Shown here: positions 1 through 18,640 of the stretch, one piece after another | How the letters are laid out: every line of letters starts with the position of its first letter | Position numbering within the stretch: the first letter of the stretch is position 1 | Made by a program: the position numbers and the translations under genes | Notes under the pieces: generated by a model | Seen by the model: only the letters and a program-made list of their open reading frames with translations | The model's database searches: none | Told to the model about the DNA's origin: nothing | Origin: Gracilinema caldarium DSM 7334 | GTDB lineage: Bacteria; Spirochaetota; Spirochaetia; Treponematales; Breznakiellaceae | Reading direction: 5' to 3' | Length of the DNA stretch: 64,000 nt | Assembly: GCF_000219725.1 (NCBI RefSeq) | Contig: NC_015732.1 | Coordinates: forward strand, 124,001 to 188,000

Positions 1-1259
1 ATGATTGAATCGTTATTTGTGTACAGCTCAAATAGCCGCTTGACTAACTCAACGGGCTTGGGATATGTGAAAACCGCCTTTTCATTAAACAGCTTCTTCA
101 AATCCTGACTTGCCTTTTGGGAGTGTCCTACATCTTGATGCTTCCATATTGTCATCGGGGTTATACCTTGTTTAACTTCTGATAGAAACCTTTTTATCCT
201 TGGCACACCATTTCCATCATCACCAAAATAAATTCTATTGTCTTTTAGAAATTCTGCAAAACGTGTTTTATTAAGTCTCCAACTATAGCCGCTCGGAGGC
301 ATAACTCTGCGACCAGATGGTGTTACAATTTCATATATATTATTTTGAATAGCTGGTCCTACCGACAAGTCAGCAGAAGCCCAGTTCCCGCGAGGGTCAT
401 TATCTGGATTTGAATAGCGGTTATCTGCTTCTTCACTTCGCGGTAATCCATTACAAATCAGATTATTAAAATCTTTAGCGTAACAGATGATGTAATCATG
501 GCTTTCTGAAAAGTGCTTTTTTAAATTTACAGGTGAAAAAGCACGTTCCCAAATAACACTCGCGACAAAATTACTTTCACCGAAAACCTCATCGCACATC
601 TTCCTTAATTGTGCAACCTCATTGTCATCAATACTAATAAAGATAACCCCATCAGGCGTAAGTAGATTCCTCGCCAGCACCAACCGTGGATACATCATAC
701 TGCACCAGTCGGAATGAAAGCGTCCGTTGCTTTCAGTATTGCGAAACAGGCGGTCGCCGTCCTCGTCGTACATGCCCGCTTCTTCCTCGTAGTCTTCTCG
801 GCTTTTTGCAAAATCATCACGGTAAATAAAATCGTTGCCTGTGTTATAAGGCGGGTCGATATATATCATCTTCACCTTGCCAAGATAGCTCTCCTGCAAA
901 AGTTTTAATACATCAAGGTTGTCGCCCTCTATGTAAAGGTTCTCGGTGGTGTCCCAGTCGCGGCTGCCGCTGCTGCAATAGGGCTTTCCCGTACTGTCTG
1001 CACCGGTAGGAGTAGTTTCATCCTTAACAATAGGGCGAAGCGTCTTGCGGATAGGTCTGCCTGCCTCGGCAATGGCGGCGCGCTTGCCCACCCAGGTAAA
1101 CTCATAGGCTTCGTCTTTGAATATTTCCTCGCCCACATAGGAGCGCAAAAGGTCTACATTCACCTTGCCCTCGGCAACCACGCCGGGGAACAGCTCTGCA
1201 AGCTTCTTGCGGTTTTCGGCGGTAAGGTTCGGGGTCTCAAATTTCATTTTATCCATCAT
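1..1259 (-). CDS. Site-specific adenine DNA methyltransferase (Mod-type), C-terminus beyond window edge
   Basis: The frame is open from position 1259 to the window edge, giving about 419 N-terminal residues. A DPPYN motif (methyltransferase motif IV) lies near residue 135, and near residues 402-419 there is a KPVELVKRLFEL segment that in this family directly precedes the SAM-binding FxGxG motif, which would lie outside the window. The IV-before-I order is that of beta-class N6-adenine methyltransferases, as in type III Mod subunits. ATG at 1259 overlaps the TGA of the upstream DUF4391 gene by four bases (ATGA), so translation is probably coupled; a second ATG follows at 1256. Presumed role: protective or epigenetic methylation in a restriction/defence cluster with the two genes upstream. 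Whether a restriction (Res) subunit follows cannot be seen. Confidence 0.88.
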   Translation of the reverse strand, partial: MMDKMKFETPNLTAENRKKLAELFPGVVAEGKVNVDLLRSYVGEEIFKDEAYEFTWVGKRAAIAEAGRPIRKTLRPIVKDETTPTGADSTGKPYCSSGSRDWDTTENLYIEGDNLDVLKLLQESYLGKVKMIYIDPPYNTGNDFIYRDDFAKSREDYEEEAGMYDEDGDRLFRNTESNGRFHSDWCSMMYPRLVLARNLLTPDGVIFISIDDNEVAQLRKMCDEVFGESNFVASVIWERAFSPVNLKKHFSESHDYIICYAKDFNNLICNGLPRSEEADNRYSNPDNDPRGNWASADLSVGPAIQNNIYEIVTPSGRRVMPPSGYSWRLNKTRFAEFLKDNRIYFGDDGNGVPRIKRFLSEVKQGITPMTIWKHQDVGHSQKASQDLKKLFNEKAVFTYPKPVELVKRLFELYTNNDSI

Positions 1260-1867
1260 CTTAATTCCTCCAGTTCTTTTCTTAGCCGTTTCAACTCGCT
1301 GTTTAGTTCAACCTGCCTATTAAACTGTTTCTCCCGCAGGACTTTCTTTTCTAACGCGGCGATATCACGTTCGAGTTTCTGTCGCTGTTTATCTCTTTCA
1401 ACTGCCTTGGCGATGTCATCCTCGGCGTCGAGCCGGCCGCCCGCAATCTGCCGCGCCAGATTCTCATACACGGCATCCAGATTCAACCCCTCAAATTTCA
1501 GCGTGAATCCCTCAAGCGTAAACCAGTCCGTGCTGTAGAATGTGCCGGAGGCTTCCATCCACGCCTGCGCCTCGCCTTCAAAGGTCAGTAGAAACAGAAT
1601 CTTGTACGGTATCGCCTTAGCTATGGCGGGCAGGATGCGCTTGTCCAAAGCCTTTTGCCTGAGGGCGATCTCGAAAATTTGAATTTCCTCGACTTTCTCC
1701 CCGGCGGCTACGCTCATGGTGCTGTCGGCCAGTTTGTTCCGCCAGACCACCGACTCTATCTGGTCTTTTATCATATCCTTTACCGAGGCAGTCAATGTGG
1801 CGTTGGCGTAAAGCTTCTCTTTTGCCACACGGCGGTTTACCTCGGTGGAACGGGGTAATCCCAGCAT
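1256..1867 (-). CDS. DUF4391 family protein
   Basis: 203 residues. The sequence begins MLGLPRSTEVN and has an acidic/aromatic central part (WMEASGTFYSTDWF near residues 105-120), followed by a long basic-acidic coiled coil from about residue 145 to the end. This resembles DUF4391 proteins, which are commonly encoded between an SNF2-type helicase and a Mod-type methyltransferase, exactly the arrangement here. Biochemical function is unknown to me; a bridging or specificity role is inference from position and the coiled coil. It starts 4 bases after the helicase stop and overlaps the methyltransferase start by 4 bases, so the three genes form one translationally coupled unit. Confidence 0.75.
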   Translation of the reverse strand: MLGLPRSTEVNRRVAKEKLYANATLTASVKDMIKDQIESVVWRNKLADSTMSVAAGEKVEEIQIFEIALRQKALDKRILPAIAKAIPYKILFLLTFEGEAQAWMEASGTFYSTDWFTLEGFTLKFEGLNLDAVYENLARQIAGGRLDAEDDIAKAVERDKQRQKLERDIAALEKKVLREKQFNRQVELNSELKRLRKELEELR

Positions 1868-1871
1868 ATGA

Positions 1872-4800
1872 TTACCTCACTACAATAAAACAGACTAACT
1901 CGAAGTCTTCCAATCCGTCAATGCGGGTATCAAGAGCGGTCGTACCGCCCGGACTGAACAGGCTGTCAATATCGCTTTCCGCTTTTACTTCCACGATAGA
2001 GTTGATCGCATCAGTCAAGAGTGAAGAAACTCTTCGCATATCCCGTCCGTCCTTTGTTTCGGCGTTGAACTCACGGCAAACGTCCATAACAGGGGTGCTT
2101 CTGCCTTTGCACAACAAGCGGATCTTATCGAGCAGTTCTTTAGGCGAAAGGTGGTTGCAAACGACTTCGCCATCCGCTCCTATGTATACCATATAAAATG
2201 GGTGTAGGCGGTTTTGCTTATCGATGTTTACGCTGTTGTTGCGGTTCTTGAGAATGAACACGACGCCCGGGGGACAGTCCTTGGAAGCCGGCACTACGGC
2301 GTGAAGCCCGAATGGTACGGTGTCCATATCCCCGTGGGTCTTTACATATTCAAGAAGGTCGAGCCGGAATTCATTCAGCCCCAAATCCATAATCGAAATA
2401 CCCGACTGCATATCTTCAATATTCACGACCTCTTCCTGAAGCCGTTTGAGTTGTGCCTTGCGGTATTCGAGGTCGCCCTTTTCTTCTTCATTTATTAGGT
2501 CGTCATCGCCTGTGGCGGTCATTATCGAAATGCGCATCCTTGTTTCGACTCGCCCTTTCAGAGAAAGATACTCGTCCAAATCCACATCCGGCCAAAAATT
2601 CACAAGCTGAATAACGGCGTTCCTACTTCCAATACGGTCAATACGTCCAAATCGCTGAATGATACGGACGGGGTTCCAATGGATATCGTAGTTGACACAG
2701 TAATCGCAGTCCTGAAGGTTCTGCCCTTCCGAAATACAATCCGTCGCTATAAGTACGGAGATGTCGTTCCGATTGTTCGGCATCAGCAAGTCTTTGCCTT
2801 TGGAAATCGGTGAGAAAAGGGTTAAAACTTCGTTCATCGAGGCACGCTGCCCCTTAATCGTTGTCTTACCCTCAACACTTCCCGTGACCATTGCAGAGTC
2901 AAGTCCAAAACGGGTCTGCACAAAGGTACTCACGTGAGTGTAAAGGTATTCAGCGGTATCGGAAAAGGCAGTAAAAATTAGGATTTTGCGGTTACCCTCG
3001 TTGATTGGTTTTGTTATTTTTTCCTGAATCAGGCTGAAAAGAGTCTGTAGTTTTGTATCATGTTCCGGTGTAATGTCATCTAGTAATATTTTGAGCAATT
3101 CCAGCGTTTCGGCGTCCTCCGCAATCCTGTCCCGCCAAGTCTTATAGTCCATATCGGCAAGGTCAATCTTAATACTATGTTCTGCAGCAAAGTAATCTGT
3201 GTTACGGTCGTCGTCATCAAAGTCCGCTTCGTCGCCTGCTAACTCACGACCGTTGATAACTGAACTGCCTCCAGCAATGAAAGCGTCAATTTCGGCGATA
3301 GTGTTGTCAATAAGTTTCTTTACACGTCCGACTGTGAGCCGGAAGGACTCAACTGAGCTTTCAAGCCGTTTGAGAAGGTTGATGCTCATCAGTCTGCGGA
3401 TACCCATTTCGCGGCCGACACGGTTGATGTTTCGGGAGGTATCCACATACTTGTTAAGCTTGCTTGGAAATATGAAGTCTGTAGGTATGTACACCGAAAG
3501 GTTCAATCTCATAAGCTGTTCGTAAATGTCGTTGTAATTTATCGCACTCGGCAAATCTGTCATGCGTGGCCGCAGTGAAATGGGTTTTAAACGTTCGGGG
3601 AAAGAGCCTATCTCGTCCATGTTGTAATACTTTTCTATGTGCTTTCGGGAACGTGCAATGGTTACGCTGTCAAGAACTTTAAAGAAGTCAAAGTCGAGGG
3701 CTTTAAGAAGCGCATCTGTAGTTCGTTTGCCTTCCTCCAACTTGTTCCACTGGTTAAACACCTTCTGGGCATTACGGAAAATCTCATCGATAAATCGTTT
3801 CGTTCCCAGACGATCATTGATAAGACTTGGGTTTCCCTCATAGGCGAGTTCAAGTTGATTTCGCAAGTCAATGAAGTGGTTGTTTACTGGTGTAGCCGAC
3901 AGCATGAGAACCTTCGTCTTTACACCTGCACAGATAACGCGGTTCATAAGACGAAGGTAGCGGTTCTCGCGGCGGTCTTCGCCATAGACCTCTCCGCCGT
4001 TTCTAAAGTTGTGTGACTCGTCGATGACCACAAGGTCGTAGTTGCCCCAGTTCAGCCTATCAAGGTCAAGCCCGTTTGATGTGCCTCTATCCCTCGAAAG
4101 GTCAGTGTGAAAAAGCACATCATAACGAAGGCGGTCGGAGGCTATGGGGTTGTTGATATAATTGTCCTTGAATGTATTCCAGTTGTCAGACAGCTTTTTA
4201 GGGCAAAGCACAAGCACGGAGCGATTGCGGTTTTCATAATATTTAATGACAGCAAGGGCGGTGAATGTTTTCCCTAAGCCGACACTGTCCGCAAGAATGC
4301 AACCATTAAATGTTTCTAGTTTATTGATAATAGCCAAAGCGGCGTCTTTCTGGAAAGTGTACAGCATGCTCCAGATTTTGCTCTCTTTAAATCCGGTCGC
4401 CTCGTTTGGCAGAACATCCTCTGAAATATCTTCCAGGAATTCATTAAATATGTTATAAATCGCAACAAAGTAAATAAATTCAGGCGCATTTTCGTTGTAT
4501 GCTGCTGTTATTCCATCAATAACCTGTTCGGTTACGTCCTGCATCAGGTTCTTATCGTTCCAAATCTGCTCAAACATTCGAATATATTCATTCGATACAG
4601 GAGTAAATAGTTTGGTTACTGGATTGATGATATTGTTGCCCCGTTCACAACCTAAATCGGCAGTCGTGAATCCATTTAATGGCATATAGGTAATGGGTTC
4701 CGATCCTATAATGTTAATAAAACTGGAAATGTTCCCGCCAGTCAGATTCGAGCGGAATTGTACTTTCTTGCGAATCCACTCGGCGCATTCACGAGCAATG

Positions 4801-5105
4801 GCCTTCTGAGTCAATTCATTACGAAGTTTCACTTCGAACTCTGTACCATAGATAGAACGCTCGCGATTAAGGCGGGGTATGTAAAATTCCCGCTTTTCTT
4901 TAGGGGCTTTTTCTCGTAAAAATGTAGGGGAAGTAAAGATAAAGCGCAGTTCTGCGATATCATCAAGCTGCTTCTTGAGTGCCTGGTAGGCATAGATGGA
5001 AAAACAGGACGATGCTATGGACAGCTTATCACCCTTTTTTATTGTGACCACTAAATCATCTTTAATTGTTTTGCTAATATTATCGAACATTTCTGGCATT
5101 TGCAT
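1872..5105 (-). CDS. SNF2-family helicase/translocase of a restriction or defence cluster
   Basis: 1077 residues. Walker A (SVGLGKT) near residue 272, motif II DESH near 362, motif III LSATPV near 402, and a C-terminal helicase domain with ATDCISEGQNLQ and QRFGRIDRIGS (motifs V and VI) near 790-825. The first ~100 residues (SIASSCFSIYAYQALKKQL) look like the PLD-like module often found at the N-terminus of such helicases, but I see no HKD catalytic motif. Start ATG at 5105 has an AAAGGAG site 8 bases upstream. It is the first gene of a helicase-DUF4391-methyltransferase operon. Expected role: ATP-driven translocation on DNA, probably in restriction-type defence. The precise system name cannot be fixed from this partial locus. 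Confidence 0.88.
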   Translation of the reverse strand: MQMPEMFDNISKTIKDDLVVTIKKGDKLSIASSCFSIYAYQALKKQLDDIAELRFIFTSPTFLREKAPKEKREFYIPRLNRERSIYGTEFEVKLRNELTQKAIARECAEWIRKKVQFRSNLTGGNISSFINIIGSEPITYMPLNGFTTADLGCERGNNIINPVTKLFTPVSNEYIRMFEQIWNDKNLMQDVTEQVIDGITAAYNENAPEFIYFVAIYNIFNEFLEDISEDVLPNEATGFKESKIWSMLYTFQKDAALAIINKLETFNGCILADSVGLGKTFTALAVIKYYENRNRSVLVLCPKKLSDNWNTFKDNYINNPIASDRLRYDVLFHTDLSRDRGTSNGLDLDRLNWGNYDLVVIDESHNFRNGGEVYGEDRRENRYLRLMNRVICAGVKTKVLMLSATPVNNHFIDLRNQLELAYEGNPSLINDRLGTKRFIDEIFRNAQKVFNQWNKLEEGKRTTDALLKALDFDFFKVLDSVTIARSRKHIEKYYNMDEIGSFPERLKPISLRPRMTDLPSAINYNDIYEQLMRLNLSVYIPTDFIFPSKLNKYVDTSRNINRVGREMGIRRLMSINLLKRLESSVESFRLTVGRVKKLIDNTIAEIDAFIAGGSSVINGRELAGDEADFDDDDRNTDYFAAEHSIKIDLADMDYKTWRDRIAEDAETLELLKILLDDITPEHDTKLQTLFSLIQEKITKPINEGNRKILIFTAFSDTAEYLYTHVSTFVQTRFGLDSAMVTGSVEGKTTIKGQRASMNEVLTLFSPISKGKDLLMPNNRNDISVLIATDCISEGQNLQDCDYCVNYDIHWNPVRIIQRFGRIDRIGSRNAVIQLVNFWPDVDLDEYLSLKGRVETRMRISIMTATGDDDLINEEEKGDLEYRKAQLKRLQEEVVNIEDMQSGISIMDLGLNEFRLDLLEYVKTHGDMDTVPFGLHAVVPASKDCPPGVVFILKNRNNSVNIDKQNRLHPFYMVYIGADGEVVCNHLSPKELLDKIRLLCKGRSTPVMDVCREFNAETKDGRDMRRVSSLLTDAINSIVEVKAESDIDSLFSPGGTTALDTRIDGLEDFELVCFIVVR

Positions 5106-7533: not shown

Positions 7534-7929
7534 TTAATTCCAATCTTCAATTTTGATTCCATCTACTCTGATGAATTCATTTGTATTATTTGTAACAAGG
7601 ATTAATTTCTTAGCTATTGCCTGTGCCGCTATTTGCATATCATATGGACCTATTAGCTTCCCTTCTTTCTTTAATTTTGATCTTATTCTCCCAAATTCTT
7701 TTGCATCTTCATCATCAAAATCCAATATTTTAAAAGGTGCTAAAAACTCAACTAAAGAAATATGGTTTTTTTCAATGTTTTGACTATTAAAAACTCCAAA
7801 ATACAATTCAGCAACTGTAATACTTGATATATATAAATTCTGGTTAATTACTTGATGTAAATGATCTAATACCTGTTTCGGTTTTTTGTTCTTTATAAAA
7901 ATGCAAATATTTGTATCGAGTAGATACAT
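7534..7929 (-). CDS. vapC: VapC-type PIN-domain toxin ribonuclease
   Basis: 131 residues forming a complete PIN domain. The expected acidic metal ligands are visible: D5 in LLDTN, E41 in VAELYFG, D97 in GPYDMQIAA, followed by the conserved TNNTNEF near residues 113-119. VapC proteins are Mg-dependent endoribonucleases, typically cutting tRNA or rRNA, inhibited by a co-encoded VapB. The start ATG shares one base with the stop of vapB (TAATG), so translation is coupled. No truncation or missing catalytic residue is seen, so the toxin is probably active. The specific RNA target cannot be read from sequence. Confidence 0.92.
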   Translation of the reverse strand: MYLLDTNICIFIKNKKPKQVLDHLHQVINQNLYISSITVAELYFGVFNSQNIEKNHISLVEFLAPFKILDFDDEDAKEFGRIRSKLKKEGKLIGPYDMQIAAQAIAKKLILVTNNTNEFIRVDGIKIEDWN

Positions 7930-8159
7930 TATAAACCATCTCTTTCTTGCATAGCTGGTTGTTCTCTTCCATCAGCCATAAAGTCTTCTGTGAATCCATT
8001 TAAACCTTCAAGAAAAGTCTCCCAAACACGATCTTTGGGGAATAGAATCACAGCCTCTCCAACCTTCTGGATAAGAACATCATTACCTTTGAAGTTATAT
8101 TCTTTCGGTAGTCTTACTGCCTGACTACGGCCATTCTGGAATAGTTTAGCGGTTTGCAT
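7929..8159 (-). CDS. vapB: VapB-type antitoxin (AbrB/SpoVT fold)
   Basis: 76 residues. The N-terminal half (TAKLFQNGRSQAVRLPKEY ending near residue 21, then DVLIQKVGEAVILFPK) is the standard swapped-hairpin AbrB DNA-binding domain of VapB. The C-terminal half is acidic and aromatic and would wrap the toxin. The start at 8159 has a strong AAGGAGGAAC ribosome site. As in other vapBC loci, VapB is expected to repress its own promoter together with VapC; a perfect palindrome over the -10 element is the likely operator. Confidence 0.92.
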   Translation of the reverse strand: MQTAKLFQNGRSQAVRLPKEYNFKGNDVLIQKVGEAVILFPKDRVWETFLEGLNGFTEDFMADGREQPAMQERDGL

Positions 8160-8351: not shown

Positions 8352-9719
8352 ATGGAAAATAGTAAGCCGAAAAAATCTGTTGTTGAGCGGATTGGAGACT
8401 TTTTTGCGGTGGCGGGCTTGCTCGCCTTTCTGGTGCCGGCCCTGGCGGCCTTTGGAATCGGTGCGCCCCTGACCTGGGTTCAGCGCGGCCTGGGGGCCTT
8501 TGGCGAAAGTGGGGCCCTCCTCCTGTATTTTATCGGTGCCTACCTTATCGCGGCCCTCTTTGGAACGGTGGAGCGGATCCTTCCAGTTCTTTCCGGGTTG
8601 ATGACCGGGCTTCTCCTTTTTGCTGGAGCCTTTGAGGTTCCCTACCTGACCGGTATCCGTTCGGCCCTGTTCCGCTTCGCGCCCTTTCAGGAGGCAGCCC
8701 CGGCCCTCTTTGCGGGAGCCCTGGCGGTGATCGTCGGGAATCTCATGGGCCGCAGTCCTAAAACTAAAGCTATCCCGGGACTTCTTGTTCCCTTTGTAAG
8801 CGGTATTGCCCTTCTCATTGTGCTTGCCGCCTGGTCCCCCTTTACGAAAAGCACCCTGAACCTGGATGCCTCCAGTGTGGAGCGGGCCATACAATCCATA
8901 TCCGGCACCCTGGGCAAGGAATATGTAAACCCGGAGGTCGAGAAGGCGGTCCGCCAGGTCATGGAAGAAAAAAACAAGACCCTGGCAGAAAAGGAACAGG
9001 CCCTTAAGGAATTACAGGAACGGCTAGAGCGGACCGAGGCGGACAAAAAAGCCCTGGAACGTTCCTTAAAAGACAGCGATCAGCTTTCCAAACAGCTCGA
9101 GGCGGCAAAAAAGGCTCTGGATGAGATGAAGGGCCGCCTGGAATCCCAAGTACCCCTCGTGCAGGGCGGCCGCTATGATCAGGCGGTACAGCCCGCGGAT
9201 CCCTTAGTGCGGGACTTTGCCGTAAAGGCGGCCAGCGCCGCCCCGGGGCCCTGGGATAACCCCCAGGGAAGCCGAATCCCTAACGACGCAGGAGCTCATC
9301 AACTTGTATTGATCCATGGAGCCATCTCCCGGAATTGGAAATATGTGAGCGACCCTGCGGTCTCATGGACTGATTACACTTCCCCTGCAAAGAGAACCCT
9401 CGCCCTGGGTCTGGCCGGGGACTGCGACGATTACGCGGCCCTCATGGCATCCTGCATCATCGCCGTGGGGGGCAGAGCCCGGATCGTCCATGGTGTTAAG
9501 GGCAACCAGGGCCACGCCTGGGCCGAGGTCTGGATTGGCCAGGGGGCAATGGCCGAGAGGGTGCTTTCATCGGTAGCCCGCTTTACAGGCCGAAACCCGG
9601 GACAGCTTGCGGTGAGTGTGGATGCGGCTACGGATAACCGCTGGCTGGTGCTGGACTGGGAACTGGGACGCTACAGCTTCCCCGCCAGGACCATAACCAT
9701 AGCATGGACGAGCGATTAA
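8352..9719 (+). CDS. Membrane-anchored, coiled-coil transglutaminase-like protein
   Basis: 455 residues from ATG 8352 (the TTG at 8316 is rejected because it is part of the -35 box). The first ~155 residues hold about five hydrophobic segments, so the protein is in the inner membrane. Residues ~190-265 are a strongly charged coiled coil (EKNKTLAEKEQALKEL). The C-terminal domain has a complete transglutaminase-like triad: GDCDDYAAL with Cys near 358, GHAWAEVW with His near 388, and LDWE with Asp near 435. The fold covers peptidases and cross-linking enzymes; substrate unknown. First gene of a four-gene operon: the VWA gene begins one base after its stop. The combination with VWA, PP2C and kinase suggests a membrane protein controlled by phosphorylation (inference). 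Confidence 0.85.
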   Translation: MENSKPKKSVVERIGDFFAVAGLLAFLVPALAAFGIGAPLTWVQRGLGAFGESGALLLYFIGAYLIAALFGTVERILPVLSGLMTGLLLFAGAFEVPYLTGIRSALFRFAPFQEAAPALFAGALAVIVGNLMGRSPKTKAIPGLLVPFVSGIALLIVLAAWSPFTKSTLNLDASSVERAIQSISGTLGKEYVNPEVEKAVRQVMEEKNKTLAEKEQALKELQERLERTEADKKALERSLKDSDQLSKQLEAAKKALDEMKGRLESQVPLVQGGRYDQAVQPADPLVRDFAVKAASAAPGPWDNPQGSRIPNDAGAHQLVLIHGAISRNWKYVSDPAVSWTDYTSPAKRTLALGLAGDCDDYAALMASCIIAVGGRARIVHGVKGNQGHAWAEVWIGQGAMAERVLSSVARFTGRNPGQLAVSVDAATDNRWLVLDWELGRYSFPARTITIAWTSD

Positions 9720-9720
9720 T

Positions 9721-11736
9721 ATGAAAGATATTACCATTTTTGGAAAAACCTACGAGTTTCCCATCATTAAGGATGAGCGGCTCTATCAATTGCAGGATGC
9801 TATTAAAGAACACCGGGAAGTGCTCGAGCCGGAGGATGCCAGGAAGGGCTTGCTCTCTATTTTTGTGAAACGGGAACCGCTAAGTCCCCAGGAACGGCTA
9901 GAACGGATGGAAAGCCTCGTGGCCAATTACGATGAGTTAATCAACCTGCTCCGTGAAAAGATAAGCGCCTGTCATGAAGTCTTTGACCGCATGGGGGAGG
10001 GTGTTCAAGCCGAGTTTCAGCGTAAACTGAAAGAACTGGAAGAAATGGAGTTGGGCCGGCAAAGGCTGGTGGAAGAATATAAAAAACAAGGCTTTACCGA
10101 TGCGGAAGCCATGTTTGAGCCCCAGCGGCAGGGAATCCGCGACATGGTAACCAACCTGAGCCGGGCTACGATACTCATCATCAAAAAATTGCGCCATGCC
10201 CTGGATGCTCTGGAAACCCTGGCTTCGGATGATGAAAAACAGCGGAGTACCTATGAAAAATTAAGAACCAATGTAGTGCTCTACCGGGAGACCTACGAAT
10301 ATAATGAAAAACTTAAGAACATGGAAAAAGAATTAGCGGAGCTCACCCAATTTGCTTTGAAATTCGACAAATTACTGCGGGATAACCTGGGCCCCCTGGG
10401 AATGCTCGTAGAACAGATCAGCTCCATCGACAGCCGGCTCAGCGAGAGCCTGGCTGATATAGAAAAGCTGTCGGCCGAATTGGAGCAGGGAACCTTTAGT
10501 TCGAACCTGAACCTGGTGTCGGATCGATTAATTTCTACTATTATTTCGGGCCGGATGCGATCTGAGGTGGTGGATGATATTCTTAAAAAAATGGCCGATC
10601 CTATTTCGGATGTCCAACAGATCGATTTTGATATAACCCTTACCGAAACGGTTTCTGATTCCCTCGATTTTAAGGCCCTGGCAGAAAATATGCAGATCCT
10701 GGTAGAGCGGGGTATCCACGATCTTTCCATGGTAGGAAGTTCCGCCCCTGGGGTTACCGCGGCTGACGGTGCGGCGGCTGTCGATAACGCGGCTCAGACT
10801 GCGGCTGACGAGACTGCGGCACAGGCGGAACCGGCCACAAATACTGCCCCAGAGCAGGCCGCTCCGCAAGAAACACCCTCAGCGCGGCCTGCTTGGGTGC
10901 CCCCTGAACCGCGGGCAAAACAAAGCGCTGGAGGTGAGCGGGCCTACCGGGCGGCCATAAGCCGGGCCAACCCCACGATGATTCTCTTTTTGCTGGACCA
11001 GTCGGGCTCCATGGAACATCATTTTAGTGGAGGATATTCCCGCGCCGCATATCTGGCCATGGTGGTGGACCAGGCCATAGAAGAGCTGAGTGTCCGCTGT
11101 AATAAGGCCGATGGTATCCGGGATTATTTTTATATTGCCGCCCTTGGATATGGGAATGATGAAATCCGCACCGTTATTGGCACGGAAAATACACCCTGGG
11201 TGCCAATTTCCGTTCTGGCCCGCTCTCCCCGGGAAATTTACCGGGACGGGGATGGCATACCCCATCCCCGGTGGATTCTCCCCCAGATGCAGGGCAGTAC
11301 CCCCATGCGGGCCGCTATGGAAAAGGCCTGCTATGTGGTGGCCGACTGGTGCGAAGCCCATCCTGCATCCTACCCGCCGACGGTCATCAATATTACCGAT
11401 GGGGACCCCACCGATGGCAGTCCCGAGGAGGCCGCGGAGATCCTCCGGAAGCTCCACACCGATGATGGGGAGGCCCTGCTCTTTAACCTTCATGTGGGAG
11501 AGCCGGGGGACGGTTCCCAAAAGAATGTGGTCTTTCCCGGCACCTCCGATGGTCTGGGTGAGTACGGCAAACTTCTGTACCGTATGTCCAGCCCCTTCCC
11601 GCCCCATCTGCGGGATGCGGCTATCGCCGAGGGCTTCAGCATCAGCCCCACCGCCCGGTTCTTTGCCTATGGGGCTGAGGCAAAGCTGGCAACCCGCTTC
11701 CTTAACCTGGGAACTCGGCCGGCGAGGATGACCTGA
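9721..11736 (+). CDS. Coiled-coil protein with C-terminal von Willebrand A domain
   Basis: 671 residues. The first ~330 residues are mostly helical and charged, with several coiled-coil stretches (ERLERMESLVANYDELINLL and similar). An Ala/Pro/Glu-rich linker spans about 345-400. A VWA domain follows, with a complete MIDAS metal site: DQSGSM at residues 427-432, GSTPM near 526 and TDGDPTDG near 559. No signal peptide or membrane segment is visible, so it is probably cytoplasmic and acts as a metal-dependent protein-binding adaptor. It starts one base after the transglutaminase-like gene and its TGA overlaps the next ATG (TGATG). VWA with PP2C and kinase neighbours recalls TerY-P triads, but the long coiled-coil N-terminus is not part of a plain TerY protein. 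Confidence 0.85.
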   Translation: MKDITIFGKTYEFPIIKDERLYQLQDAIKEHREVLEPEDARKGLLSIFVKREPLSPQERLERMESLVANYDELINLLREKISACHEVFDRMGEGVQAEFQRKLKELEEMELGRQRLVEEYKKQGFTDAEAMFEPQRQGIRDMVTNLSRATILIIKKLRHALDALETLASDDEKQRSTYEKLRTNVVLYRETYEYNEKLKNMEKELAELTQFALKFDKLLRDNLGPLGMLVEQISSIDSRLSESLADIEKLSAELEQGTFSSNLNLVSDRLISTIISGRMRSEVVDDILKKMADPISDVQQIDFDITLTETVSDSLDFKALAENMQILVERGIHDLSMVGSSAPGVTAADGAAAVDNAAQTAADETAAQAEPATNTAPEQAAPQETPSARPAWVPPEPRAKQSAGGERAYRAAISRANPTMILFLLDQSGSMEHHFSGGYSRAAYLAMVVDQAIEELSVRCNKADGIRDYFYIAALGYGNDEIRTVIGTENTPWVPISVLARSPREIYRDGDGIPHPRWILPQMQGSTPMRAAMEKACYVVADWCEAHPASYPPTVINITDGDPTDGSPEEAAEILRKLHTDDGEALLFNLHVGEPGDGSQKNVVFPGTSDGLGEYGKLLYRMSSPFPPHLRDAAIAEGFSISPTARFFAYGAEAKLATRFLNLGTRPARMT

Positions 11737-12488
11737 TGGCCGCGGTCGGTCGCTGTTTTACTTTTCCCGTTCATGGCGAAACCGGGGAAGACCGCTGGGC
11801 CTGGGCAAGGGCGCCGCAGGGTGCTTCCTGCTATGTCCTCTGTGATGGGGCAAGCGAAAGTTTCGATGGGGCGACCTGGGCGGGAACCCTTGCCCAGGTG
11901 CTTGCCCGGGGGCTCCTCATGGCCGGTGCCGAAATAAAAAAGGATGCGCAGCGGGAGCACCAGCATTTCATCAACCTGATTAAAGAAGCCCAAAAAATAT
12001 ACGCCCAGCAATCCCAAATGCTGGTTCCTGGCGAGCTCGAGTGGCTGAATCGGCAGGCCCTGGCTCGAGGCTCCTGGTCTACGGTGCTGGCCCTGCGCTT
12101 TTCTCCCCACAATTCCTATGCGGACCTTTGGGCCCTGGGTGATACGATGCTCTTTTTGCGGGATGGGGATCGCGTTGTGGCTTCCTTTCCTCTTTTGGAG
12201 GCTAAGGCGACACCGGATAACCCGCTTTTGGTACCGAGCCGGGGTACGGTCCCCTCCGAGTGGTGTCGCAGGCGGCTTAATCTGCGTGCTTTACATAAGC
12301 CGCGATTGCTTCTTACCACCGATGCGCTGGGCTATTATATGCTTGCCCGCCCTGAATCGGAACGGCTTTTGCTCTGGGACTTCTGGTCCCGTGCTCCGAA
12401 GGAAGCATTAGATTCCTGGTTGATGAACGAACAGCGCCGCGGTGCCTTGCCTTCCGATGATTGTACCTTTTTGGAGCTGTTGCCATGA
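11736..12488 (+). CDS. PP2C-like protein phosphatase
   Basis: 250 residues. PP2C landmarks in order: GETGEDRW near residues 14-21, CDGASES near 36-42 (the metal-binding DG), GDTMLFLR near 136-143, LLTTDALGY near 193-201 (in place of the usual SDG motif) and DDCTFLEL near the C-terminus (the final metal-binding Asp pair). The metal-binding set therefore looks intact although divergent. Expected role: Mn/Mg-dependent removal of phosphate from Ser/Thr, opposing the kinase encoded next. The start overlaps the VWA stop by one base, and the stop overlaps the kinase start by four bases (ATGA), so all three are translationally coupled. No membrane segment. Confidence 0.82.
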   Translation: MAAVGRCFTFPVHGETGEDRWAWARAPQGASCYVLCDGASESFDGATWAGTLAQVLARGLLMAGAEIKKDAQREHQHFINLIKEAQKIYAQQSQMLVPGELEWLNRQALARGSWSTVLALRFSPHNSYADLWALGDTMLFLRDGDRVVASFPLLEAKATPDNPLLVPSRGTVPSEWCRRRLNLRALHKPRLLLTTDALGYYMLARPESERLLLWDFWSRAPKEALDSWLMNEQRRGALPSDDCTFLELLP

Positions 12489-14356
12489 GCGGCTGGCCGA
12501 GTCTTCAGGAGTATAACCGGGCTCTATTGAATAGCAGTGAAAACCTGCGCATTTCGGGCCTCTCGGACCTCCGGCTTGAGCTGAACAACCTGGGCCTGCC
12601 CAATGCCCTTTCGGGGGGCTTTGCCTACATTTACCAGCTTTCCTATCGGGGCGGGAAAAAGGCCCTCCGGCTTTTCCATTCGGTGAGCCAGGACCGGCTC
12701 CCCGCCCTGCAGAAGGCCTACACCCTGCTCGGTACCCTGCGCAGGACCGCCGACGCCCTTTCAGACCATTTGGTCGAAGCCCTCTGGATATCCGACTGTC
12801 TAAAGGTTAATGGAAATCTTGTGCCTGGGGTCGTCATGGATTGGGTCCAGGCACCAACTTTGGGTACCTGGTTGGAACAGAATTACCGGAATGGTGAGGC
12901 CTTGAACCGTTTGCGATACCGGCTGGCACAACTGCAGGGGGCCTTGGAGACTCAGCAGGTGGTCCATGGGGATATCCAGACGGGGAACCTGGCTGTAAGA
13001 AGTGATGGACATATTCTTCTTTTAGACTATGACGGCTTTCAGCAGGCGGGATCGGAGTACCGCTCTTGGGAGCAGGGCCATATTCACTTTCAGCATCCTG
13101 ACACCTTCAGTACCTGGACCGCCGGTGGGGCGGTAGGATCTGGGACTGCAGGGGCTGGGCCATCCGGCTTTGTGACTGGGGTGGAGCTCTCCCGGATACA
13201 GGCCATCGATAGGTTCCCCTTTATCGTCATCGATCTGGGTCTGGCTTTGCTCGCGGCACAGCCTGCACTGTTTGACCAGTTTTGTCAGGGCGAGAACATT
13301 GTCTTTACCGCCGACGATTTTATCGATCCCCGGGGGAGTGCCGCCCTGGCCGCCCTGGGTACGGTCCAGGAACTGGAGGGAGCCCGAAGCGCCTTTTTGA
13401 GCATCTGCGAAGGGCCTGCGTCGGCGGTCCCGAGTCTGCGGGACTTTCATGAAGCCTGCGGTATCCATCTGACCGAAGCAGGGCAGGTAAGAACCGGGGC
13501 GGTGCAATTCACCGTAGAAAAACCCTGGGAGGGGGAAAAAGCCGGTGAACAGGAAACGGTAGGGCGTAAAAGGCGGAATCGGGCTTACCGCAGTGTGTAC
13601 CCGGTCTATGATGGGCGGAACTTTCCCCTGGGGAATAGTGCGCCGATGGGCCAGAAAATTGAATTGATCGGCAAGGTCCGTGAGGTAAAATACGGCTTTA
13701 CCAAGTACGGGAAGCCCTATGCCTTTGTTAATTTTACCGACTGGAAACAGGATGGAATAAAACTTATTTTCTGGTCCGAAGATCTGGAGGCCTGCCGGGA
13801 CCGGAAGCCCGATGTTACCTGGGAGGGGAAATGGATAAGTGCCATCGGTCTTGTGGATGAGCCCTACAAAAGTCCCAAATTCAGTACCCTGCAATATTCC
13901 ATCACTATCCATGAACCGAATCAGATCAGGTTGATTTCCGAATCCGAGGCCCGGCGGCGGCTTAAAAAGCATTCCGGCATCGATATGGAGGATTATGATG
14001 ACGAGGCCGAGGCTGAGGACGAGGCGGAAATTGCCACCGATCCTTTTCTGGGCCGCAGTCCCAGCTTTAGCTCAGGCATATCGGGAAACGCCGCTTACGG
14101 GTTTTCCCGTAGCGGGTCAGCTTCGACGGGCACCAAAAAACCGAGCAATGCCGAGCTCTTGCGTCAGCTTTCCAGACCAGCTTCCCCTGCGGCAGAACAG
14201 CCCGCCACGGCATCGAGCAGGCAGACCGGGCCCCAAGATGTATGGCCCTACAACACCCTATCGAAGGAGCCTGAAAGTAAAAACCACGGGTGCCTGTGGT
14301 TTGTAATTGGTGTCATTGCGGTTGTTCTGTATATATATCTAACGGGCAGGCATTAA
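12485..14356 (+). CDS. Ser/Thr kinase-like protein with OB-fold-like domain and C-terminal membrane anchor
   Basis: 623 residues from ATG 12485, chosen because it overlaps the PP2C stop (ATGA). Kinase features: glycine-rich GGFAYIY (44-50), candidate ATP lysine in GGKKALRLF (58 or 59), catalytic HGDIQTGN (Asp163, Asn168) and DYDGF (Asp181) in place of DFG. All catalytic residues are present, so it is probably active, of a divergent bacterial type. From ~387 to ~487 (GQKIELIGKVREVKYGFTKY onward) the pattern resembles an OB-fold nucleic-acid- or ligand-binding domain. A low-complexity acidic/Ser-Pro-rich stretch follows, then one hydrophobic helix (about 602-618) with a short tail, so the kinase is tail-anchored. 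Last gene of the operon; no terminator recognised after it. Confidence 0.82.
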   Translation: MSGWPSLQEYNRALLNSSENLRISGLSDLRLELNNLGLPNALSGGFAYIYQLSYRGGKKALRLFHSVSQDRLPALQKAYTLLGTLRRTADALSDHLVEALWISDCLKVNGNLVPGVVMDWVQAPTLGTWLEQNYRNGEALNRLRYRLAQLQGALETQQVVHGDIQTGNLAVRSDGHILLLDYDGFQQAGSEYRSWEQGHIHFQHPDTFSTWTAGGAVGSGTAGAGPSGFVTGVELSRIQAIDRFPFIVIDLGLALLAAQPALFDQFCQGENIVFTADDFIDPRGSAALAALGTVQELEGARSAFLSICEGPASAVPSLRDFHEACGIHLTEAGQVRTGAVQFTVEKPWEGEKAGEQETVGRKRRNRAYRSVYPVYDGRNFPLGNSAPMGQKIELIGKVREVKYGFTKYGKPYAFVNFTDWKQDGIKLIFWSEDLEACRDRKPDVTWEGKWISAIGLVDEPYKSPKFSTLQYSITIHEPNQIRLISESEARRRLKKHSGIDMEDYDDEAEAEDEAEIATDPFLGRSPSFSSGISGNAAYGFSRSGSASTGTKKPSNAELLRQLSRPASPAAEQPATASSRQTGPQDVWPYNTLSKEPESKNHGCLWFVIGVIAVVLYIYLTGRH

Positions 14357-14428: not shown

Positions 14429-14563
14429 AGGAAAAATTCTAATTTGCGATTGCTAGTTGTTTGTCATTGCTATCGTGAGTTCGATTCAGTGATACGAATA
14501 ATTTCAGCTAGAAAAGCCTCAGCAAAGGAGGAGAAAGTATATGAACGATATAGAAATGCGTGA
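14429..14563 (+). pseudogene. 5'-deleted brnT toxin remnant
   Basis: The frame from 14429 to the TGA at 14561-14563 reads RLLVVCHCYREF, then VIRIISARKASAKEE, then KVYERYRNA. The RIISARKA....E..Y block is the hallmark C-terminus of BrnT ribonuclease toxins. A stop at 14426-14428 closes the frame upstream, and the N-terminal half (the catalytic region) is not found in any frame up to the kinase stop at 14356. The remnant overlaps the brnA start by 23 bases, the normal brnTA arrangement. Hence brnT was truncated, presumably when the DNA to its left arrived or was deleted. Confidence 0.75.
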
Positions 14564-14765
14564 AGAATATGATTTTGAAGATTCCATCAAGAATCCGTAC
14601 ATACCCAAGCTTAAGAAGCCCATAACTATACGGTTAGATAATGAAACTATTGTTTATTTTAAAAAATTGGCAAAGGATTCTGGTATTCCATATCAGACTT
14701 TGATGAATTATTTCCTTACACAATGTGCAAAAGAGCACAAGAAACCTGAGATAATCTGGAAATAA
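14541..14765 (+). CDS. brnA: BrnA-type antitoxin, orphaned
   Basis: 74 residues, intact. The acidic N-terminus, the KPITIRLDNETIVYFKKLAKDSG strand-helix and GIPYQTLMNYFLTQ form a ribbon-helix-helix domain of the BrnA/CopG type. A strong AAGGAGGAG site at 14525-14533 precedes ATG 14541. BrnA normally neutralises BrnT and represses the brnTA promoter as a dimer. Here the toxin is reduced to a C-terminal fragment, so BrnA could act only as a repressor, as an anti-addiction factor against related toxins, or be decaying. Family call is good; present function is inference. Confidence 0.8.
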   Translation: MNDIEMREEYDFEDSIKNPYIPKLKKPITIRLDNETIVYFKKLAKDSGIPYQTLMNYFLTQCAKEHKKPEIIWK

Positions 14766-18551: not shown

Positions 18552-18640
18552 GGTGTCCGGCCCAGGCGTGCGATCGGACCCTTGTGGAAGCTCCCCGATG
18601 GTTTACCATCTTGTGACGCCAGTCGCTCGTCCTAGATTAC
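18552..18640 (-). promoter_or_regulatory. ZTP (pfl motif) riboswitch upstream of glyA
   Basis: Reading the minus strand, GACGAGCGACTGGCGTC is followed by an ATGGT-aa-ACCAT hairpin, then GGGGAGC, a variable linker and CGCCTGGGCC. GACUGGCG, GGGGAGC and the terminal CGCCUGGG (which pairs with UGGCG as a pseudoknot) are the conserved core of the pfl/ZTP riboswitch, which binds ZTP/ZMP and activates folate-dependent one-carbon genes such as glyA. The GAGGAG ribosome site follows within a few bases and no T-run is seen, so control is probably at translation initiation (inference). Confidence 0.9.

Follow-up and report, generated by a model that had tools for sequence, protein, structure and literature searches.

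TerY-P systems with an OB kinase, in which a TerY protein is combined with a PP2C phosphatase and a Ser/Thr kinase (the TerY–PP2C–STK_OB triad), have been reported as a stand-alone anti-phage system (Gao et al. 2020). In Pseudomonas aeruginosa PAO1, TerY-P protected cultures, and most infected cells survived (PMC10889362). The triad has also been found inside Type II and Type III-A CoCoNuTs (PMC11090510). We found no account in the TerY-P literature of how the system protects cells, nor any literature joining TerY with a transglutaminase. Periplasmic transglutaminase-like proteins are known from other settings: in LapD–LapG, a transglutaminase-like protease in the periplasm is controlled from the inside out (PMC3032545, PMC4359373), and in Caulobacter, the periplasmic transglutaminase homologue HvyA sets both the capsule and phage sensitivity (PMC4241560).

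Here, we describe a TerY-P locus that is headed by a gene for a membrane coiled-coil transglutaminase-like (TG) protein. It comes from Spirochaeta (Treponema, Gracilinema) caldaria, strain H1T of which is a hot-spring spirochete (PMC3739177), and lies within a stretch of 64,000 nucleotides (referred to as the window) spanning positions 124001 to 188000 of a genome assembled as one contig (3,239,340 bp). Our best overall explanation, which we consider about as probable as all others combined, is that the locus is a spirochete-specific, membrane-anchored, four-gene version of TerY-P with a proposed inside-out control.

Genes 2 to 4 form a TerY-P triad

The four genes of the operon (Table 1) are separated by a single base between TG and VWA and overlap by one base between VWA and PP2C and by four bases between PP2C and kinase; these reading frames and their spacing are as first recorded in a preliminary description of this DNA. 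That description saw a resemblance to TerY-P, which stands, and also held that the genes did not plainly match any named system, which does not: the VWA, PP2C, and kinase genes, adjacent in that order (9721–14356), all match PADLOC models of TerY-P, with the TerY model (PDLC02224) covering the VWA domain at 3.1e-67, the PP2C model (PDLC02222) matching at 1.7e-25, and the STK_OB model (PDLC02223) matching at 3.8e-102. The strength of these matches identifies the triad as TerY-P of the OB-kinase type, and judged by their sequences, genes 2 to 4 with their additions are in all likelihood a variant of that system. Neither TerD (PF02342, E ≤ 1) nor TelA (PF05816, E ≤ 10) has a match in the genome, and a tellurium Ter system, with which the triad had at first been linked, is therefore unsupported here.

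Table 1. Features of the operon and its surroundings (window coordinates unless a locus is given)
Feature	Position	Strand	Remarks
HKD+Snf2-type helicase, adjoining DUF4391 gene	1256–5105		
PIN gene of vapBC-like pair	7534–7929		
MazE-like gene of vapBC-like pair	7929–8159		
TG protein, 455 aa	8352–9719	+	
TG protein, five predicted membrane helices, residues 10–161	8379–8834	+	N terminus predicted inside; AF2 model and charge bias
TG protein, helical stalk, residues 194–266	8931–9149	+	predicted periplasmic
TG domain, residues 271–455	9162–9716	+	contains C358, H388, D435
Coiled-coil/TerY VWA protein, 671 aa	9721–11736	+	
VWA protein, conserved helical N-terminal region, residues 1–338	9721–10734	+	missing from triads read outside spirochetes
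TerY VWA domain, residues 408–670	10942–11730	+	intact MIDAS
PP2C phosphatase, 250 aa	11736–12488	+	
Ser/Thr kinase-OB protein, 623 aa	12485–14356	+	
Kinase OB region, about residues 388–490	13646–13954	+	PADLOC STK_OB match and conserved block
Kinase C-terminal membrane anchor, residues 599–622	14279–14350	+	
BrnT C-terminal remnant	about 14429–14560		by eye
BrnA	14541–14765		
ZMP/ZTP riboswitch	18553–18636	−	Rfam RF01750, slightly over gathering score
RtcR-type CARF regulator and PrsW-like protease leading into TG-TerY-P operon	L063:6063–9386; L058:6038–9378; L062, upstream of TG		

The five MIDAS residues of the VWA protein (D426, S428, S430, T527, and D560) show no variation across nine homologues, bearing out the intact MIDAS noted earlier, and the identification of gene 3 as a PP2C-like phosphatase is likewise upheld by its PADLOC match and by its metal-binding aspartates (D19, D37, D196, and D241-D242), which every one of 11 sequences retains, those of Calothrix and Bacteroidota included. 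The kinase had been called active-looking, and this holds for its HGDxxxxN and DYD motifs but not for the beta-3 lysine, which is an arginine. As 16 of 18 family members have Arg at this position (the other two have Lys), the substitution is, on this sequence comparison, a family trait; it nevertheless attaches a caveat to kinase activity and counts against our best explanation, as does the faster divergence of PP2C and kinase relative to TG and VWA. The OB block of the kinase is conserved among spirochetes and weaker in Calothrix.

Spirochete TerY proteins carry a conserved helical N terminus of ~330 aa, for which no convincing Pfam match provides a family name. The predicted model of the VWA protein is largely of low confidence in this region, so that no fold search was possible on it. 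TelA was entertained as its identity, a guess dropped given the lack of a Pfam match and of TelA in the genome. The VWA gene appears split in one spirochete (G025), which is due to an assembly gap of N. The spirochete TerY proteins constitute one clade (support 95/99), a topology that fits a single assembly of the four-gene unit.

Distribution of the four-gene unit

The four-gene set recurs in further spirochetes of at least five genera. The complete order TG–VWA–PP2C–kinase was read in G003, G039, G044, G025, G410, G366, and L061 (for G039 and G410, the frames holding PP2C were in some runs discarded by a greedy ORF filter); all four genes are also present in G001, in frames broken in the assembly, and three loci (G002, L056, and L058) have TG followed by VWA, with nothing readable past the latter. 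Wherever upstream DNA is readable, TG precedes the triad in spirochetes. STK_OB occurs in 8 of 393 genomes of the phylum: six also have TG, and in the other two the contig starts within the triad. The TG gene is likewise present in eight genomes, of which six carry STK_OB. The co-occurrence has a hypergeometric P of 1.6e-10, or 4e-7 when counted by genus, related genomes being nonindependent draws. The tie between TG protein and triad that was proposed from the window thus extends to other genomes. It holds across several spirochete families, but outside the phylum no co-occurrence was found, and TG relatives in Bacteroidota are solitary. Measured against the refuting condition set in the preliminary description, no co-occurrence beyond close relatives, this outcome lies midway. 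When about 85,000 species were scanned, the four-gene unit turned up in Spirochaetota only, although remote copies may have escaped since the scan used two peptide patterns. The C-terminal membrane anchor of the kinase is present in nine of nine spirochete copies versus none of 10 from elsewhere. We regard it as quite probable that TG, TerY, PP2C, and kinase make up one functional unit.

The Bacteroidota kinases mostly have an internal transmembrane segment and a coiled coil in place of a clear OB fold; that membrane-spanning kinases also occur in these triads, which have no TG gene, counts against our best explanation. TerY-P-like kinases were seen in 12 of 296 Bacteroidota genomes (L100–L112), several sharing surroundings unlike defense islands.

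Searches of mobile elements yielded little: no TG relative was found on viral contigs and no TG homologue on plasmids, where the sole kinase homologue is that of the Calothrix plasmid; the VWA protein has no match in phage records; and in PHROGs, VWA, PP2C, and kinase are without match, with a single weak match to the TG helical stalk.

The TG protein and its predicted topology

Transglut_core (PF01841) matches residues 317 to 397 of the TG protein (E 2e-10; 41.2 bits versus a cutoff of 23), and the complete Cys-His-Asp triad that was recognized at the outset is confirmed by the invariance of C358, H388, and D435 across 26 diverse homologues. The nearest solved folds to the TG domain by VIA-align are two putative cysteine proteases, 3kd4 (Z 10.6) and 3isr (Z 9.9), followed by LapG (Z 9.0, 124 aligned residues, rmsd 3.2). 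The likeness to LapG is one of fold only, the LapG/BTLCP family (PF06035) not being among the 25 Pfam families listed for the TG protein. The best Foldseek E-value was only 1.7e-3, and a sequence search of the PDB with profiles gave two weak matches, both within the TG helical region, and none for kinase or VWA. This fold evidence, drawn from a model, supports a TG-like fold and not any particular activity. A serine near residue 9, tried as a phosphosite, was dropped because it is not conserved in every member of the cassette.

The invariant catalytic residues bear on the main rival to our explanation, in which signals flow from the outside in: the TG protein would sense an envelope signal, such as damage or phage adsorption, and its membrane bundle would activate the triad, whose targets lie elsewhere. 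The position of TG as first gene and the anchoring of the kinase in the membrane beside the TG protein favor such a sensor, as does the fact that triads without TG exist and act in defense, so that the output may be downstream of the triad. Strict retention of Cys-His-Asp in all 26 homologues, however, exceeds what a binding-only sensor would need, and TG-family proteins are found without any triad; we consider this alternative unlikely.

Which side of the membrane the TG domain occupies is a matter of prediction throughout, based on hydropathy, charges, one AF2 model, and homologues of exported appearance. The AF2 model (pLDDT 83.6, pTM 0.46) comprises five helices of transmembrane length, an extended helical stalk, and, last, the TG domain. 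In TG homologues, loops placed inside have a net positive charge and those placed outside are neutral or negative. Judged by eye, a Phycisphaerae homologue (L078) has a lipoprotein-like start and a Bacteroidia homologue (L077) a single N-terminal transmembrane segment. Five helices with the N terminus inside, the charge bias, and the exported look of the homologues together make a periplasmic TG domain the likely arrangement in this model. The kinase, phosphatase, and VWA protein are predicted to be cytoplasmic, with the tail anchor leaving the catalytic part of the kinase in the cytoplasm.

Were the TG domain instead cytoplasmic, the kinase, phosphatase, and VWA protein could engage it directly, as substrate or partner, in the way that the preliminary description envisaged. 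The long helices of the TG and VWA proteins could pair if they were on the same side, and the short helix at residues 38 to 51 might count as a sixth membrane pass; against this stand the five helices of transmembrane length with their positive inside loops and the exported look of the homologues, making a cytoplasmic TG domain quite unlikely, and less likely than the sensor alternative. With the TG domain predicted to be periplasmic and the kinase cytoplasmic, the kinase would be unable to phosphorylate the TG domain directly, and the earlier proposal that the enzyme itself is phospho-switched is thus unsupported; any control would pass via the membrane bundle.

A second TG cassette and RtcR-type regulators

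Proteins of the TG family also head a second spirochete cassette, which we encountered at seven loci (L037, L038, L069, and L072–L075; e.g., L073:1649–7562). As far as each contig extends, its genes are ordered TG, a multi-transmembrane protein with a helical tail, a single-transmembrane protein, and one or two more shared proteins. By eye, the two membrane proteins look like a MotA/TolQ and MotB/TolR pair (profiles gave no confirmation), and four partner proteins of this cassette have no match to PADLOC models. In addition, Aureispira and Flavobacteriales have full-length homologues of the membrane TG protein (L064–L068, L070, and L071) whose genes seem to stand alone. The TG enzyme can therefore do without the triad, which counts against our best explanation.

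These solitary relatives, together with the second, unrelated cassette, would be expected if TG were an envelope enzyme only co-transcribed with TerY-P and not coupled to it in function. The association is held, however, across several families despite differing flanking genes, the joint occurrence is significant even by genus, and the kinase anchor accompanies TG; mere co-transcription is thus very unlikely, and less likely than TG acting as the sensor.

RtcR-type CARF/sigma-54 regulators lie near the TG gene of the sister cassette in L037, L072, L073, and L074, and in L037, L038, L069, L073, and L074 the TG gene is preceded by sigma-54-like sites that match 9 to 10 of the 10 core bases. With nine such matches in total across seven of the examined loci (99.6 kb), one site alone is weak evidence; the placement of the sites upstream of TG is suggestive at the sequence level. 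Three TG-TerY-P cassettes (L058, L062, and L063) are also preceded by an RtcR-type regulator, with a PrsW-like protease gene between RtcR and TG (by profile match in L063) and sigma-54-like sites of 8 to 9 bases. The window operon has neither an RtcR-type regulator nor a sigma-54-like site upstream, and sigma-70-like matches there are no commoner than in shuffled sequence. RtcR matches listed for the window genome were rejected as candidates: all start past model position 130 and so resemble common sigma-54 activators that lack the CARF portion. As RtcR in Salmonella responds to cleaved tRNA (PMC7790460), analogy hints at RNA damage as the trigger in the RtcR-bearing lineages.

Genomic neighborhood

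The operon sits between a vapBC-like pair and BrnA, confirming these parts of the location originally given; a fragment directly before BrnA looks by eye like the C-terminal end of BrnT, which would make this a decayed brnTA pair. To its left are defense-like genes (an HKD+Snf2 helicase with DUF4391 beside it, and PDC-S01), and in G410, the operon neighbors a type IIG RM gene, an HKD+Snf2-like helicase, and PDC-S01. Genes that by eye resemble toxin-antitoxin genes lie upstream in G002, and neighbors at the remaining loci read are metabolic or of unclear type. The defense surroundings described for the window are thus real there but not a general feature. With clear defense-like neighbors in only two of the loci read, homology makes a defense role possible but context does not establish it, and we advance an anti-phage purpose of the cassette only tentatively. 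A ZMP/ZTP riboswitch lies beyond the operon on the opposite strand (Table 1).

Proposed mechanism and significance

An operon that joins a switch to a membrane TG protein suggests that the envelope is acted on from inside. Under inside-out control with TG as the output, which by analogy we rate as plausible but short of an even chance, a signal in the cytoplasm, either nucleic acid bound by the OB fold or metal bound at the MIDAS, would tip the balance between kinase and phosphatase, most simply on the VWA–coiled-coil adaptor. Phosphorylation of this adaptor, beside the tail-anchored kinase, would bring the membrane bundle of the TG protein into another state, which in turn would free or restrain the periplasmic TG-like enzyme; the enzyme would then cleave or cross-link an envelope target, in the way that LapD presides over LapG. 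The purpose is probably an envelope-level response to stress or phage. A bolder reading, which we hold to be doubtful, is that the TG module has been exchanged between two signaling cassettes (TerY-P, and the multi-transmembrane cassette with CARF/RtcR and sigma-54-like sites) and that a cytoplasmic phospho-switch over a periplasmic TG enzyme makes up a new class of envelope effector in spirochetes, working from the inside out in stress or anti-phage responses.

This natural TerY-P comes with a single, defined membrane enzyme, which gives experiments a concrete output (or input) to examine, and the sister cassette provides an independent handle on the role of the TG enzyme. Should the TG domain prove periplasmic, the module would amount to a kinase/phosphatase counterpart of LapD–LapG, tying anti-phage-type signaling to the envelope.

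Comparison with known systems

(i) CoCoNuTs contain a TerY-P with a zinc-ribbon kinase as part of a McrBC-type system, whereas the window kinase matches the OB model; no CoCoNuT-like gene was noticed in the profiles of the near neighbors.

(ii) HvyA, a homologue of bacterial TG-like cysteine proteases, and the window protein both have a TG-like domain with Cys-His-Asp that is exported (by prediction in the latter). HvyA, however, has 272 residues and no membrane anchor, whereas the window protein is multi-pass and has a clear Pfam match to Transglut_core.

(iii) LapD–LapG likewise pairs a TG-like Cys-His-Asp enzyme (predicted to be periplasmic here) with cytoplasmic input, and LapG is near in fold. 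LapG, in contrast, stands apart as a protease that LapD recruits under c-di-GMP, whereas the window enzyme is attached to a membrane bundle of its own and has kinase, phosphatase, and VWA as partners. The likeness is one of analogy and not of membership.

(iv) TerY-P of the STK-OB type is the closest match: all three proteins match dedicated models, the order VWA–PP2C–kinase is that on the Calothrix plasmid, and the metal-binding and catalytic residues are retained. Elsewhere (the Calothrix plasmid, Bacteroidota, and one Myxococcota genome, with some loci only partly resolved by a simple ORF caller), the triads lack the TG gene and the C-terminal kinase anchor, and TerY is bare, at about 287 aa, in nearly all readable cases. 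By sequence, then, the TerY–PP2C–STK_OB triad is the known part of this locus, and the new part is its spirochete version, with a TG gene placed first, a helical extension on TerY, and an anchor on the kinase.
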